From Pacificibacter maritimus (GTDB taxonomy: Bacteria; Pseudomonadota; Alphaproteobacteria; Rhodobacterales; Rhodobacteraceae), in contig NZ_RKQK01000002.1 in the NCBI RefSeq assembly GCF_003814915.1, positions 187,184-251,183 of the forward strand: 64,000 nucleotides of DNA. The letters are read 5' to 3'. Shown piece by piece: positions 532 to 4,786 of this stretch (position 1 is its first letter; each line of letters starts with the position of its first letter). A model generated the notes under the pieces. That model did no database searches. It was not told where the DNA came from and was given only the letters and a program-made list of their open reading frames with translations. The position numbers and the translations under genes were made by a program.

Positions 532-2280
532 TTAGCTCAGCTCGGTAAAATCGCTTTCAGAGTGCTCCTCATCAAAGGTAGCAAGCGGAAATTCTACTTT
601 GATTTGGTAAAGGTGTTCAGTGTCTAAGACTTCGAGCGTTCCACCAATTTGACGTGCAAAAGCACCTATCAACCCCTGCCCCAAACCTGTGCCGCTTGCT
701 TGGTCTGGCGAGGTCAGTGGGATCCCCTTACTGTTTTCAATGATCAGGATGCCACGGTCCTTCGTGAGTTTTTCAAGTGTCACGACGATGCGGGGGCGCT
801 CGCCCTTGGTGTAGCCAAGATATTTCAGGGCATTCGTAATGCTTTCCGCCGCCAAAAGCGACAAAGGCACCGCCTGATCGGGATAAAGCGTTATCGGATC
901 ATAGCTGACTTTGGAATCCAGTCGTACTTCATTGGGCAAACCAGCAGACAACAAAGTTCCGATGATGCTATTCAACAGTTCATCAGCGCGCACGCGCCCT
1001 TCGGTACTGGTTTCATAGAGATTACGATGGACCATCGCGATGCTCATCACGCGCCCTTGCACTTCTTTCAGCGCAACGCGGGCCTCAGGGCTGCGCGCTT
1101 TGCGCATTTTCATATTCACGATAGAGGCGATCAATTGCAAATTGTTCTTTACGCGATGATGTACCTCTTTCAGCAAGACCGTTTTATCGTGAATGGTGCC
1201 TTCAAGCTCAGCCTCATCTCGAATAATCTGCTCAGCCAAATTGCGCCATGCCAGATCAATTTCACGCACTTCAATCGGCGCGCTGTTGTCGACGGGTATG
1301 TCATTGTGCCGCCGCGTTCGCGTGAACCGCAACATATCGCGCCCCAATCGGCGGATGTGTTTGATAACCAATCGGTCCACCGCGAAATAGGCAACCCCAA
1401 GACAGGTCAACCACATCACAATCGGAAAAATCATCGGTGTCGCCATTGCCAATCCAGGGGCGACCGATAGGTTCGTGCGAGACCAACTGCCGATTGCATA
1501 GATTTGGTTGGGCAAGATGGGAACAACGGCAAAGACCCGTCTTTCGCCCTCTCTTGTTTCACCTGAAAACGCGATCCGTTGTTTTTGAGCCAAATCCGCC
1601 AGTGATCGCCCTACAGGCAAGTGCTTACCCACGTCCCGTAATCCGCTTTCGGCGCTCAAAACATCGCCGTCTTTGTTAAAAGTCACAAGCGTCACAGGAC
1701 GACCATCAGGAATTTGTTCAAAGTCGATATTCATTTCACGGCTGGGCAAGGACACGGCCACATAGCCTTGGAAAATATTGTCGATGAAAACAGGTGTCGA
1801 AAGCACGATCACCGTGGTTTTGCTAATTGGCCCAAAGCGCACAAGATCACTGCGCACAGCGGGATTTTCACGCATTCCTTGGTAGACAGGATTTTCAGAA
1901 AAATCGAACCCATCCATGTCAGAACCGCATTGCAAAATGCCATCCACGTCAACAAAACCCGAAAATGAAAAATCTGGATTGTCTTCGATGAAATCCGCAA
2001 AAATGTCGCTGCAGGCATCAGTGCTTTTTAAAACGGCCCCCATGACAGCCGCCAAAGCATTCGAACTGCCAAAACCAGCGCGAATCAAGGCCTCTTCACG
2101 TTGTGCTGCTTGAGATGTAAGGGCCAACAAAGCCGCTTCTGCACGTTGATCGGCGGCCTGCGCAAATTGGTGTGCAAGGGAAACAGAAATCAATCCTATC
2201 GGAAATAAAGCAAGCGATAACAGGACTGCGATACGAAACCATAGCCTATGAATAAGGCGCAAGCTTAGTTTCATCTTCAC
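532..2280 (-). CDS. Membrane sensor histidine kinase, HisKA_2 type, of the general stress response
   Basis: A 582-residue sensor kinase. Residues 12-36 form a first membrane helix, 40-275 an extracytoplasmic sensor region, and 282-304 a second helix, followed by a short linker. The HisKA_2 phosphoacceptor box HHRVKNN lies at 374-380, with His374 the likely phosphorylation site. The ATPase domain follows, with an N-box (ESITNALKY) and a G-box (GTGLGQGLIG). Kinases of this family next to nepR-ecfG (PhyK-like) control phosphorylation of PhyR in alphaproteobacteria. The gene is last in nepR-ecfG-kinase and overlaps ecfG by 4 bp (ATGA), implying translational coupling. The signal it senses cannot be read from sequence. 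Confidence 0.9.
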   Translation of the reverse strand: MKMKLSLRLIHRLWFRIAVLLSLALFPIGLISVSLAHQFAQAADQRAEAALLALTSQAAQREEALIRAGFGSSNALAAVMGAVLKSTDACSDIFADFIEDNPDFSFSGFVDVDGILQCGSDMDGFDFSENPVYQGMRENPAVRSDLVRFGPISKTTVIVLSTPVFIDNIFQGYVAVSLPSREMNIDFEQIPDGRPVTLVTFNKDGDVLSAESGLRDVGKHLPVGRSLADLAQKQRIAFSGETREGERRVFAVVPILPNQIYAIGSWSRTNLSVAPGLAMATPMIFPIVMWLTCLGVAYFAVDRLVIKHIRRLGRDMLRFTRTRRHNDIPVDNSAPIEVREIDLAWRNLAEQIIRDEAELEGTIHDKTVLLKEVHHRVKNNLQLIASIVNMKMRKARSPEARVALKEVQGRVMSIAMVHRNLYETSTEGRVRADELLNSIIGTLLSAGLPNEVRLDSKVSYDPITLYPDQAVPLSLLAAESITNALKYLGYTKGERPRIVVTLEKLTKDRGILIIENSKGIPLTSPDQASGTGLGQGLIGAFARQIGGTLEVLDTEHLYQIKVEFPLATFDEEHSESDFTELS

Positions 2281-2867
2281 TGACGTTCTCCGGATACTGG
2301 CATTTGCGCGCCCAAAACGGCCTTTGTTTGTTGATCTGTTAGATCCAAGGGTTCGCCTTCGTTGAGATCCAACATTTCACCCAGCTTCAAACGGGCACGG
2401 TTCACGCGGCTTTTGACGGTGCCAAGTGCAACACCACACGTTTCTGCCGCCTCTTCATACGAAAATCCCATCGCGCCAACCAGCATCAAAGCTTCGCGCT
2501 GTTCGGTTTTTAGCTGAACAAACGCCTGCTCGAACTCTGCCATAGCAAGGCGCCCGTCGTGGTCTGGTTTTTCTGAAAGGCCTGCGGCGAAAACGCCATC
2601 AGTGTCTTGAACTTCACGCTTACGTTTGCGTTGATCTGAGTAAAATGTATTGCGTAGGATTGTAAAAAGCCAAGCACGCATATTTGTGCCTGCCTGAAAG
2701 CTGTTGAGGTTTTCCCATGCTTTCATGATGGCATCTTGAACCAAGTCGTCGGCCTGACTGGAATTGCGTGTCAAGCTTAGGGCGAAAGCGCGCATCGCGG
2801 GCAAATGCATGACGATTTCTTGAGATGGATCGGCCACGGCTTGACCCTCATCAACGAGATTATCCAT
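2277..2867 (-). CDS. ecfG: EcfG-type sigma factor of the general stress response
   Basis: An ECF15-group sigma factor. Region 2 is visible as FALSLTRNSSQADDLVQDAI and the -10-binding part as AWLFTILRNTFYSDQRKRKR; region 4 is EQREALMLVGAMGFSYEEAA followed by the TVKSRVNRARLKL helix. It directs RNA polymerase to GGAAC-N17-CGTT promoters and is held by NepR until PhyR is phosphorylated. I chose the ATG at 2867, which overlaps the nepR stop by 8 bp (ATGGATAA). An in-frame start at 2897 would add ten poorly conserved residues. The gene also overlaps the downstream kinase gene. Promoters matching its consensus occur at four places in the first 4.5 kb. Confidence 0.93.
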   Translation of the reverse strand: MDNLVDEGQAVADPSQEIVMHLPAMRAFALSLTRNSSQADDLVQDAIMKAWENLNSFQAGTNMRAWLFTILRNTFYSDQRKRKREVQDTDGVFAAGLSEKPDHDGRLAMAEFEQAFVQLKTEQREALMLVGAMGFSYEEAAETCGVALGTVKSRVNRARLKLGEMLDLNEGEPLDLTDQQTKAVLGAQMPVSGERQ

Positions 2868-3009
2868 GATTTGCATCTTGTTGACGCAACTGTTCAAGCA
2901 GGTCTAAGAACCGATCAGGCACCTGCTCATCCAGCGTTTTTTGATACACTTTGCGCAGGTTCTCTTCGATTTGCTCTTCGAGAGGAGTTTTTGGTTCATC
3001 TTGATCCAT
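2860..3009 (-). CDS. nepR: NepR anti-sigma factor
   Basis: A 49-residue ORF upstream of ecfG, short enough to be missed by length cut-offs. Its centre (LRKVYQKTLDEQVPDRFLDL) is the conserved NepR signature, two amphipathic helices that clamp EcfG. In the known partner switch, phosphorylated PhyR captures NepR through its sigma-like domain and frees EcfG. The start is the ATG at 3009; a weak GGCGG lies 5 nt upstream. The stop overlaps the ecfG start, so the two are probably made in a fixed ratio. The leftward EcfG promoter at 3064-3089 lies about 55 bp upstream, giving positive feedback on inhibitor and sigma factor together. Confidence 0.92.
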   Translation of the reverse strand: MDQDEPKTPLEEQIEENLRKVYQKTLDEQVPDRFLDLLEQLRQQDANHG

Positions 3010-3056: not shown

Positions 3057-3082
3057 GGAACTTAACGCATACCATAGGCGTT
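3057..3082 (+). promoter_or_regulatory. EcfG promoter for phyR
   Basis: GGAAC at 3057-3061, 17-bp spacer, CGTT at 3079-3082: an exact EcfG consensus about 35 bp upstream of the phyR start. Its -35 and -10 elements interleave with those of the opposite promoter, since GGAACTTAACG (3057-3067) is the reverse complement of 3079-3089. Confidence 0.9.
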
Positions 3083-3089
3083 AAGTTCC
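3064..3089 (-). promoter_or_regulatory. EcfG promoter for nepR-ecfG-kinase
   Basis: On the minus strand the sequence reads GGAAC (3089-3085), a 17-bp spacer, then CGTT (3067-3064), an exact match to the EcfG consensus. Transcription would start near 3057, giving a leader of about 48 nt for nepR. The element shares an inverted repeat with the phyR promoter. Confidence 0.9.
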
Positions 3090-3116: not shown

Positions 3117-3929
3117 ATGTCGACAGCTACTACGCAAACGTCTTTGGCCACGGTCGTTGCAAACCTTTTGCCATATTTGCGTCGCTACGCACGCGCTTTG
3201 ACGGGGGATCAAGACACTGGAGATAAATACGCGGCAATTACGCTTGAGGCACTTTTGAACGACCGCAGCGTCTTTGAACAAATCGAAAGCCCGAAGGTCG
3301 CGCTCTTTCATGCTTTTCATTTGATTTGGTCCAGTGCGGGCGCGCCGACTGGCGAAGATGAAACAGGTATCGCCAAACGCGCCCAAGCGCACCTTCGCCG
3401 CCTAACAGTGAACACACGCGAGGCACTTTTGTTGCGCACGATCGAAGGGTTTTCCTTAGATGAAATTGCAGCCATTATGGCGACTGATGAGGACGACGTG
3501 GAACACCTGTTATCTGTTGCACAAGATGAGATGTCTGACAGCATTTGCGGTCGTGTGATGGTGATCGAAGACGAAGCGATCATCGCCCTTGATTTGCAGG
3601 GCATTGTGTCTGACATGGGACATAAGATTACTGGCGTCGCAACGACCCGCACCGAAGCGCAGGCTTTGTTTTCCCAAGACAAGCCAGATTTGATTTTGTC
3701 AGATATCCAACTGGCAGACGGTTCAAACGGCATCGACGCTGTAAATGACATTTTGAAACAGCACCCTGATATTCCTGTCATCTTTATCACGGCCTTCCCC
3801 GAGCGTCTTTTGACAGGGGATCGTCCTGAGCCTGCCTTCGTCATCACCAAACCTTACAGCGAAGAGCAAGTGACCTCAGCTGTGAGCCAAGCGATGTTTT
3901 TCTCAAGCACTGAAACGCTAAACGCGTAG
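3117..3929 (+). CDS. phyR: PhyR, anti-anti-sigma response regulator
   Basis: A 270-residue protein. Residues 10-140 form a sigma-factor-like domain resembling EcfG (LLPYLRRYARALTG, then a region-4-like helix around EGFSLDEIAAIM). Residues 147-265 form a receiver domain with acidic pocket E151/D152, phosphoacceptor D196 in LSDIQ, and the conserved lysine in ITKPYS. On phosphorylation the sigma-like domain binds NepR and releases EcfG. It has its own promoter 35 bp upstream, an AGGA ribosome site, and ends before a strong terminator at 3987-4027. It diverges from nepR-ecfG, the standard alphaproteobacterial arrangement. Confidence 0.95.
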   Translation: MSTATTQTSLATVVANLLPYLRRYARALTGDQDTGDKYAAITLEALLNDRSVFEQIESPKVALFHAFHLIWSSAGAPTGEDETGIAKRAQAHLRRLTVNTREALLLRTIEGFSLDEIAAIMATDEDDVEHLLSVAQDEMSDSICGRVMVIEDEAIIALDLQGIVSDMGHKITGVATTRTEAQALFSQDKPDLILSDIQLADGSNGIDAVNDILKQHPDIPVIFITAFPERLLTGDRPEPAFVITKPYSEEQVTSAVSQAMFFSSTETLNA

Positions 3930-3986
3930 CGTTTCACCACCCTTGTTGCCTGACACCCACCTTGGGCGCGAGATTGCTTAGATATA

Positions 3987-4027
3987 AAAACGCCCCTGAA
4001 CAGCTAATGTTCGGGGGCGTTTTTTTT
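3987..4027. terminator. Bidirectional terminator shared by phyR and the DUF1328 transcript
   Basis: A 15-bp stem with one G-T pair (3987-4001 with 4010-4024) followed by a T-run on the plus strand and by GTTTTTAT on the minus strand. It lies between convergent phyR and DUF1328 and can serve both. Confidence 0.88.
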
Positions 4028-4044: not shown

Positions 4045-4112
4045 ATTTTCTCAGCGCGGACACCCTACACGAGGGAGGAGCGGGAGGAAACGAGTGCCCA
4101 CGCTGAGAAAAT
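4045..4112 (-). ncRNA. Candidate 3'-UTR-derived small RNA hairpin with anti-Shine-Dalgarno loop
   Basis: Fifteen bases after the DUF1328 stop, the minus strand can form a 19-bp stem (4112-4094 with 4063-4045) around a 30-nt loop. The outer 12 bp are perfect; two of the inner seven pairs and the junction pair are G-U only if the minus strand is transcribed, and become A-C mismatches on the other strand, so orientation is well supported. The loop carries CCTCCC and CTCCTCCC, close to the CCUCCUCCC loops of the Rhodobacter CcsR/cuckoo small RNAs. The shared terminator follows about 20 nt later. The transcript would start at the EcfG promoter 4352-4377. Processing into a stable RNA is inferred. 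Confidence 0.6.
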
Positions 4113-4126
4113 ATGACCGTCTGGGA

Positions 4127-4300
4127 CTAGACGGGTGGCTTGCCGCGCACTGCACGGGCAACCATTGCGATCACAAACAAGATGGCAAAGATCACAAACA
4201 ACAATTGCGCGATCCCTGCGGATGCACTGGCGATCCCGCCAAATCCAAACACGCCTGCAATCAATGCGACGATAAAAAAGGTAAGTGCCCAACCTAACAT
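4127..4300 (-). CDS. DUF1328 (YtjA-family) small membrane protein
   Basis: A 57-residue ORF, too short for common length filters. The start [20 protein letters not shown] and the glycine/alanine-rich centre ([18 protein letters not shown]) are diagnostic of DUF1328. Two membrane helices are evident (about residues 4-24 and 31-49) with a basic C-terminus. Members are stress-associated inner-membrane peptides of unknown activity. An exact EcfG promoter lies 52 bp upstream (4352-4377), so it is probably part of the general stress regulon. A ribosome site (AAAGGAG) precedes the ATG. Its 3' UTR holds the C-rich hairpin at 4045-4112. Confidence 0.9.
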
Positions 4301-4351: not shown

Positions 4352-4377
4352 AACGCGCACTCCGCTTGAAAGGTTCC
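4352..4377 (-). promoter_or_regulatory. EcfG promoter for the DUF1328 gene
   Basis: Minus strand GGAAC (4377-4373), 17-bp spacer, CGTT (4355-4352). Exact consensus, 52 bp from the DUF1328 ATG. It lies back to back with the promoter at 4400-4425. Confidence 0.88.
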
Positions 4378-4399: not shown

Positions 4400-4425
4400 G
4401 GAACATTTTCGCGGTTCTCTGCGTT
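4400..4425 (+). promoter_or_regulatory. EcfG promoter for the DUF883-holin operon
   Basis: GGAAC at 4400-4404, 17-bp spacer, CGTT at 4422-4425, 35 bp before the DUF883 ATG. Same spacing as the other three EcfG promoters in this window. Confidence 0.9.
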
Positions 4426-4459: not shown

Positions 4460-4786
4460 ATGGCACGTACAGACACAGCAAAAGCTGCCGAAAAAACAAC
4501 CGCTGATTTGGAAAAACAGATTGAAACGCTCACGAAAGATGTTGCCGCGTTGGCAACTGCGATGAAAGCCGACGCCAAAGCGAAATCCAACCAATTGGGC
4601 GAAGCTGCGTCAGAAACTTTAGATATAGCACGTCAAAAGGGCGTCGAGACCGCTGAGCTTGCACGTCAACAAACACGTGACGCAGTGGCAGTGGCCGAAC
4701 AGACTGTGCGCGCAAATCCTGGCGCGGCAGTTGGCGTAGCAGCACTGGCAGGTTTTGTTACGGGTATTGTGGCATCGCGCCGCTAA
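4460..4786 (+). CDS. DUF883 (ElaB/YqjD-like) membrane-anchored protein
   Basis: A 108-residue protein. Residues 10-80 form an Ala/Lys/Glu-rich coiled coil; the last 25 residues form one membrane anchor (GAAVGVAALAGFVTGIVASR) ending in Arg-Arg. This matches DUF883 proteins such as E. coli YqjD and ElaB, C-tail-anchored stress proteins reported to bind ribosomes. A strong AAAGGAG site precedes the ATG. The gene is first in an operon with the holin-like gene, paralleling the yqjD-yqjE pair, and has its own EcfG promoter, so stress induction is expected. Confidence 0.85.
   Translation: MARTDTAKAAEKTTADLEKQIETLTKDVAALATAMKADAKAKSNQLGEAASETLDIARQKGVETAELARQQTRDAVAVAEQTVRANPGAAVGVAALAGFVTGIVASRR

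Follow-up and report, generated by a model that had tools for sequence, protein, structure and literature searches.

Comparison with described RNA systems

The cuckoo RNAs/CcsR1-4 of Rhodobacter belong to the CIN1 locus with the DUF1127 gene ccaF1 and depend on RpoHI/RpoHII, and SmelA075 and SmelA099 are Sinorhizobium members grouped with them (PMC3927594, PMC7143759, PMC10253847); the definitions of cuckoo/CcsR used here were taken from the same three papers. Both cuckoo and NfeR1 RNAs combine a hypervariable stem with a conserved anti-Shine-Dalgarno (anti-SD) loop (PMC3927594, PMC7143759), and transport mRNAs have been reported as NfeR1 targets (PMC7143759). GsrN of Caulobacter, which activates katG, and its predicted Rhizobiaceae homologues are EcfG-driven sRNAs with a C-rich loop, located near the stress locus (PMC5869019).

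We analysed a stretch of 64,000 nucleotides from Pacificibacter maritimus (hereafter the window), in which a DUF1328 gene has a long stem-loop in its 3' UTR. Like the cuckoo/CcsR RNAs, the arrangement consists of a hairpin 3' of a stress gene with an anti-SD loop, an apparently very variable stem and a final terminator. It differs from them, as the preliminary description of this DNA had rightly stated, in host gene and apparently in promoter, i.e. DUF1328 and an EcfG-type element instead of DUF1127 and RpoHI/RpoHII, and also in architecture, i.e. one hairpin of 21 bp with a 26-nt loop, where they have several hairpins of about 10 bp with CCUCCUCCC. There are no tandem anti-SD hairpins behind DUF1328, where a single one is followed by the terminator, and the hairpin has no DUF1127 host, the DUF1127 locus with its array being located elsewhere in the genome. 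The full CCUCCUCCC 9-mer is absent from the loop, which carries CUCCUCCC (8/9) and CCUCCC. Judged by its host gene, apparent promoter, single long hairpin and lack of the full 9-mer, the hairpin is not a member of the CIN1/cuckoo group.

With NfeR1 and the alpha-r14 sRNAs of rhizobia it has in common the apparently hypervariable stem, unpaired anti-SD loop motifs and transport mRNAs as targets (here candidates), but those sRNAs comprise three hairpins, are transcribed from their own sigma-70 promoter and have no protein-coding host gene. GsrN resembles it by description in its EcfG/sigT promoter, in its proximity to nepR-ecfG/phyR (typical of the GsrN homologues) and in an exposed C-rich loop (predicted here), whereas GsrN has an intergenic sRNA gene of its own and our hairpin is part of the DUF1328 3' UTR. 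Since GsrN has been published (PMC5869019), a stress response with its own C-rich-loop sRNA is not new, and the idea that this would be the first translation-damping RNA of the general stress response was overstated. What appears to be new is the 3'-UTR version of an EcfG-driven C-rich-loop sRNA in the Rhodobacterales.

The hairpin and its locus

The features of the locus are as follows.

532-2280, minus strand: HisKA_2/HWE sensor kinase of the stress locus (family search)
2277-2897, minus strand: ecfG sigma factor (family search)
2860-3009, minus strand: nepR anti-sigma factor (family search)
3117-3929, plus strand: phyR, general stress response regulator, convergent with DUF1328 (family search)
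3986-4024, minus strand: intrinsic terminator, 17 pairs and a U tail (predicted fold)
4045-4112, minus strand: long stem-loop, 21 contiguous bp and a 26-nt loop (predicted fold)
4066-4091, minus strand: loop GUUUCCUCCCGCUCCUCCCUCGUGUA with two anti-SD motifs, UUCCUCCC and CUCCUCCC
4127-4300, minus strand: DUF1328 small membrane protein of 57 aa, host gene of the 3' UTR (Pfam PF07043, E 3e-14)
4352-4377, minus strand: EcfG-type promoter of DUF1328, GGAAC-N17-CGTT, GGAACCTTTCAAGCGGAGTGCGCGTT (motif match)
4400-4425, plus strand: EcfG-type promoter of the divergent DUF883-like gene at 4460-4786 (motif match)

The order is thus sensor kinase, ecfG, nepR, phyR, DUF1328 (on the minus strand) and the divergent DUF883-like gene. 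The host gene and its EcfG promoter (GGAAC-N17-CGTT, 4377 to 4352 on the minus strand) agree with the preliminary description. Such a promoter is a family trait of DUF1328 genes: an EcfG-type element lies within 150 nt of 86 of the 117 distinct DUF1328 genes, where 0.2 would be expected, and 47 of them have a phyR-like motif downstream on the opposite strand according to a loose motif test. The minus strand has the EcfG-type promoter and no sigma-70-like site, and neither promoter type was found between the DUF1328 start and the hairpin. The stem begins 14 nt after the DUF1328 stop codon and is followed after about 20 nt by the terminator, a near-symmetric hairpin flanked on both sides by A and T runs, which would end the DUF1328/hairpin transcript and, probably acting bidirectionally, the convergent phyR transcript as well.

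The minus-strand RNA (4112-4045) has a predicted minimum free energy of -36.5 kcal/mol (z -5.6), and none of 200 dinucleotide shuffles was equally stable. The opposite strand is a far weaker folder (z -2.2) because the G-U pairs become A-C mismatches there, so that the proposed orientation holds. Our figures for stem and loop are close to the 19 bp and 30 nt given earlier, though not the same, and the anti-SD loop itself was borne out, with both UUCCUCCC and CUCCUCCC predicted to be 90-95% unpaired in the full transcript. A scan over 588 kb with 894 CCTCC sites argues against a chance origin: just two long near-perfect stems (at most two one-base interruptions) surround such a loop, one of 21 and one of 22 pairs, i.e. 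the window hairpin and its equivalent at the same position in the congener G010; the remaining matches are interrupted stems.

No Rfam family reaches its gathering score in the hairpin region, the weak sub-threshold matches being on the terminator. A similarity search of the species' own genome gave no second copy of the hairpin sequence, which rules out a copy of a repeat. A potential plus-strand start site antisense to DUF1328 (GGAGG, 6 nt, GTG) was rejected by eye, the start being absent in G010.

Distribution across DUF1328 3' UTRs

The comparison covered 170 distinct 3' UTRs of DUF1328 genes, drawn from genome contigs, from the genus and from the family. A long C-rich-loop hairpin directly after the stop codon is present in three of them, i.e. 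in the window species and in the congeners G010 and G009; the three species form one clade in the PhyR tree (100/100 support). Two more marginal matches lie 54 and 130 nt downstream and have loops of 8 to 12 nt, the former within the next reading frame, and the reverse-complement control gave one match. The other 3' UTRs contain terminators or coding sequence, many having a terminator-like hairpin alone. Wide conservation after DUF1328 is therefore refuted, a result that comes near to overturning the preliminary description by its own standard, and conservation as envisaged there stands within this clade, i.e. in the two nearest species, with the stems rewritten.

All three species have the order stop codon, long hairpin and terminator, and G009 keeps this layout although its DUF1328 gene is about 6 kb from phyR. 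The G010 hairpin has 22 bp and the loop AAGUUCCUCCCCAA, which carries CCUCCCC, whereas that of G009 has 12 bp and the loop CCUCUCAUCCCCCGUAA, with CAUCCCCC in place of CCUCC. All three loops are C-rich, CCUCC occurs in two of them, and the C-rich motifs are predicted to be open in the full transcripts of all three species.

Aligned over 11 pairs, the G010 and G009 stems are set apart by two compensatory changes and by one A-U pair replaced by G-U, with no pair broken; this comparison involves two sequences, and column shuffling equals or exceeds its covariation in 130 of 500 cases. The window species has a stem that shows no sequence relationship to either, although the DUF1328 coding sequences align throughout. 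This unrelated stem would fit the published mode of the cuckoo/NfeR1 RNAs, i.e. hypervariable stem and conserved loop, in that the stem has been rewritten within the clade while the loop stayed C-rich, with CCUCC kept in two of three species.

The DUF1127 array and candidate targets

Pattern and family searches, on which the genome-wide statements rest, showed that the pattern CTCCTCCC occurs at 30 sites, i.e. nine in one array, one in the window hairpin and 20 elsewhere. None of these 20 has a convincing loop, so that the array and the window hairpin are the only convincing CTCCTCCC loops in the genome. The array (L097:1641-2110; G000:C1, about 1127.1-1127.6 kb) folds into ten hairpins in tandem, the majority with CCUCCUCCC loops, whereas Rhodobacter sphaeroides has four CcsR units. 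It follows a DUF1127 gene (G000:C1:1127.0 kb) between Mrp/ApbC-like and UvrD-like genes, and arrays of the same spacing are present in at least four congeners. By its layout, it is a canonical CIN1/CcsR (cuckoo) locus. Since the known system is already in the genome, the DUF1328 hairpin is an addition to it.

Genes with a GGGAGGAG SD sequence before the start codon (L134, L136, L148, L150 and L155, near position 1500) are candidate shared targets of the hairpin and the DUF1127 array. Most of them appear to encode transport proteins of the periplasm or membrane; Pfam assigns three, as DctP (L136), a Peripla_BP_4 binding protein (L150) and a DctQ subunit (L155). As duplex energies do not, on average, separate the window loop from a scrambled C-rich loop, these targets are suggestive. 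Autoregulation and control of phyR, ecfG or nepR were rejected, their SD sequences pairing with the loop no better than background.

Possible functions of the hairpin

We give roughly even chances to the hairpin being a regulatory RNA confined to the clade, which derives from a 3' UTR, serves the general stress response and works like the cuckoo/NfeR1 hairpins or GsrN. Given the established fold, loop, promoter, terminator, locus and clade conservation with stem rewriting, we infer that EcfG would transcribe DUF1328 together with a 3' UTR of about 140 nt, comprising one long stem-loop and the intrinsic terminator, and that the transcript would be cut just past the stop codon, probably by RNase E, as in the case of CcsR, to free a stable two-hairpin RNA. 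Its C-rich loop could then pair with SD sequences of the GGGAGGA type and lower the translation of strong-SD mRNAs under stress, the most likely targets being transport mRNAs, i.e. those for periplasmic binding proteins and TRAP subunits. Against a regulatory RNA stand its presence in three of 170 3' UTRs, the G009 loop without CCUCC and a covariation within the range of shuffling. The target class of ribosome-binding sites, which the hairpin would have in common with the DUF1127 array, also counts against it.

The hairpin might instead be the structural 3' end of the DUF1328 mRNA, its stem blocking 3'-5' exonucleases and read-through from phyR, in which case pairing alone would matter and the C-rich loop would be incidental. 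The start of the hairpin 14 nt past the stop codon, a stem that is free in sequence while its pairing is kept and the G009 loop all fit this explanation, which we still find somewhat doubtful: a strong terminator is already present downstream, a terminator-like hairpin alone suffices for many other DUF1328 genes, and each of the three species has a C-rich loop, one of these loops carrying two anti-SD motifs. Confinement to one clade would also be expected of a functionless neutral inverted repeat or remnant of a small mobile palindrome, but the single genome copy, the pairing kept in three species despite sequence turnover and the C-richness of every loop make such an origin unlikely. A hairpin unit that was duplicated out of the DUF1127/CcsR array and has since come under EcfG, sharing the targets of the array and perhaps the DUF1127 RNA-binding protein, is very improbable. 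The genome does have the ten-hairpin array, and UCCUCCCUCGUG, of 12 nt, is common to array unit 9 and the window loop, but this match is largely the motif itself, the hairpin resembles no other stretch of the genome at the DNA level, the CCUCCUCCC 9-mer is missing, and stem and loop are about twice as long as those of the array units.

Returning to the regulatory RNA, one could speculate, with considerable reserve, that a stress gene's 3' UTR recently gave rise to an anti-SD RNA controlled by EcfG. Such an RNA would exist alongside the cuckoo/CcsR-type array, whose Rhodobacter counterpart is under RpoH control, and two stress sigma factors would then act on one class of translational targets by way of unrelated hairpins. 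If made and active, the RNA would demonstrate that a 3' UTR can give rise to an anti-SD loop RNA within one clade, and that such an RNA can come under a different stress sigma factor without the genome losing its cuckoo array. With their rewritten stems, the three species would make a compact set in which to ask whether selection acts on the loop or on the stem.

DUF1328 and the stress regulator in the genus

Among 20 congeners, 14 have both a DUF1328 match and a full-length PhyR match, and six (G001, G002, G003, G008, G013 and G017) have neither; DUF1328 thus appears to have been lost jointly with the general stress regulator in the genus. In the window, the gap between phyR and nepR contains overlapping EcfG-type promoters on both strands (3057-3089), which form a near-palindromic common site.
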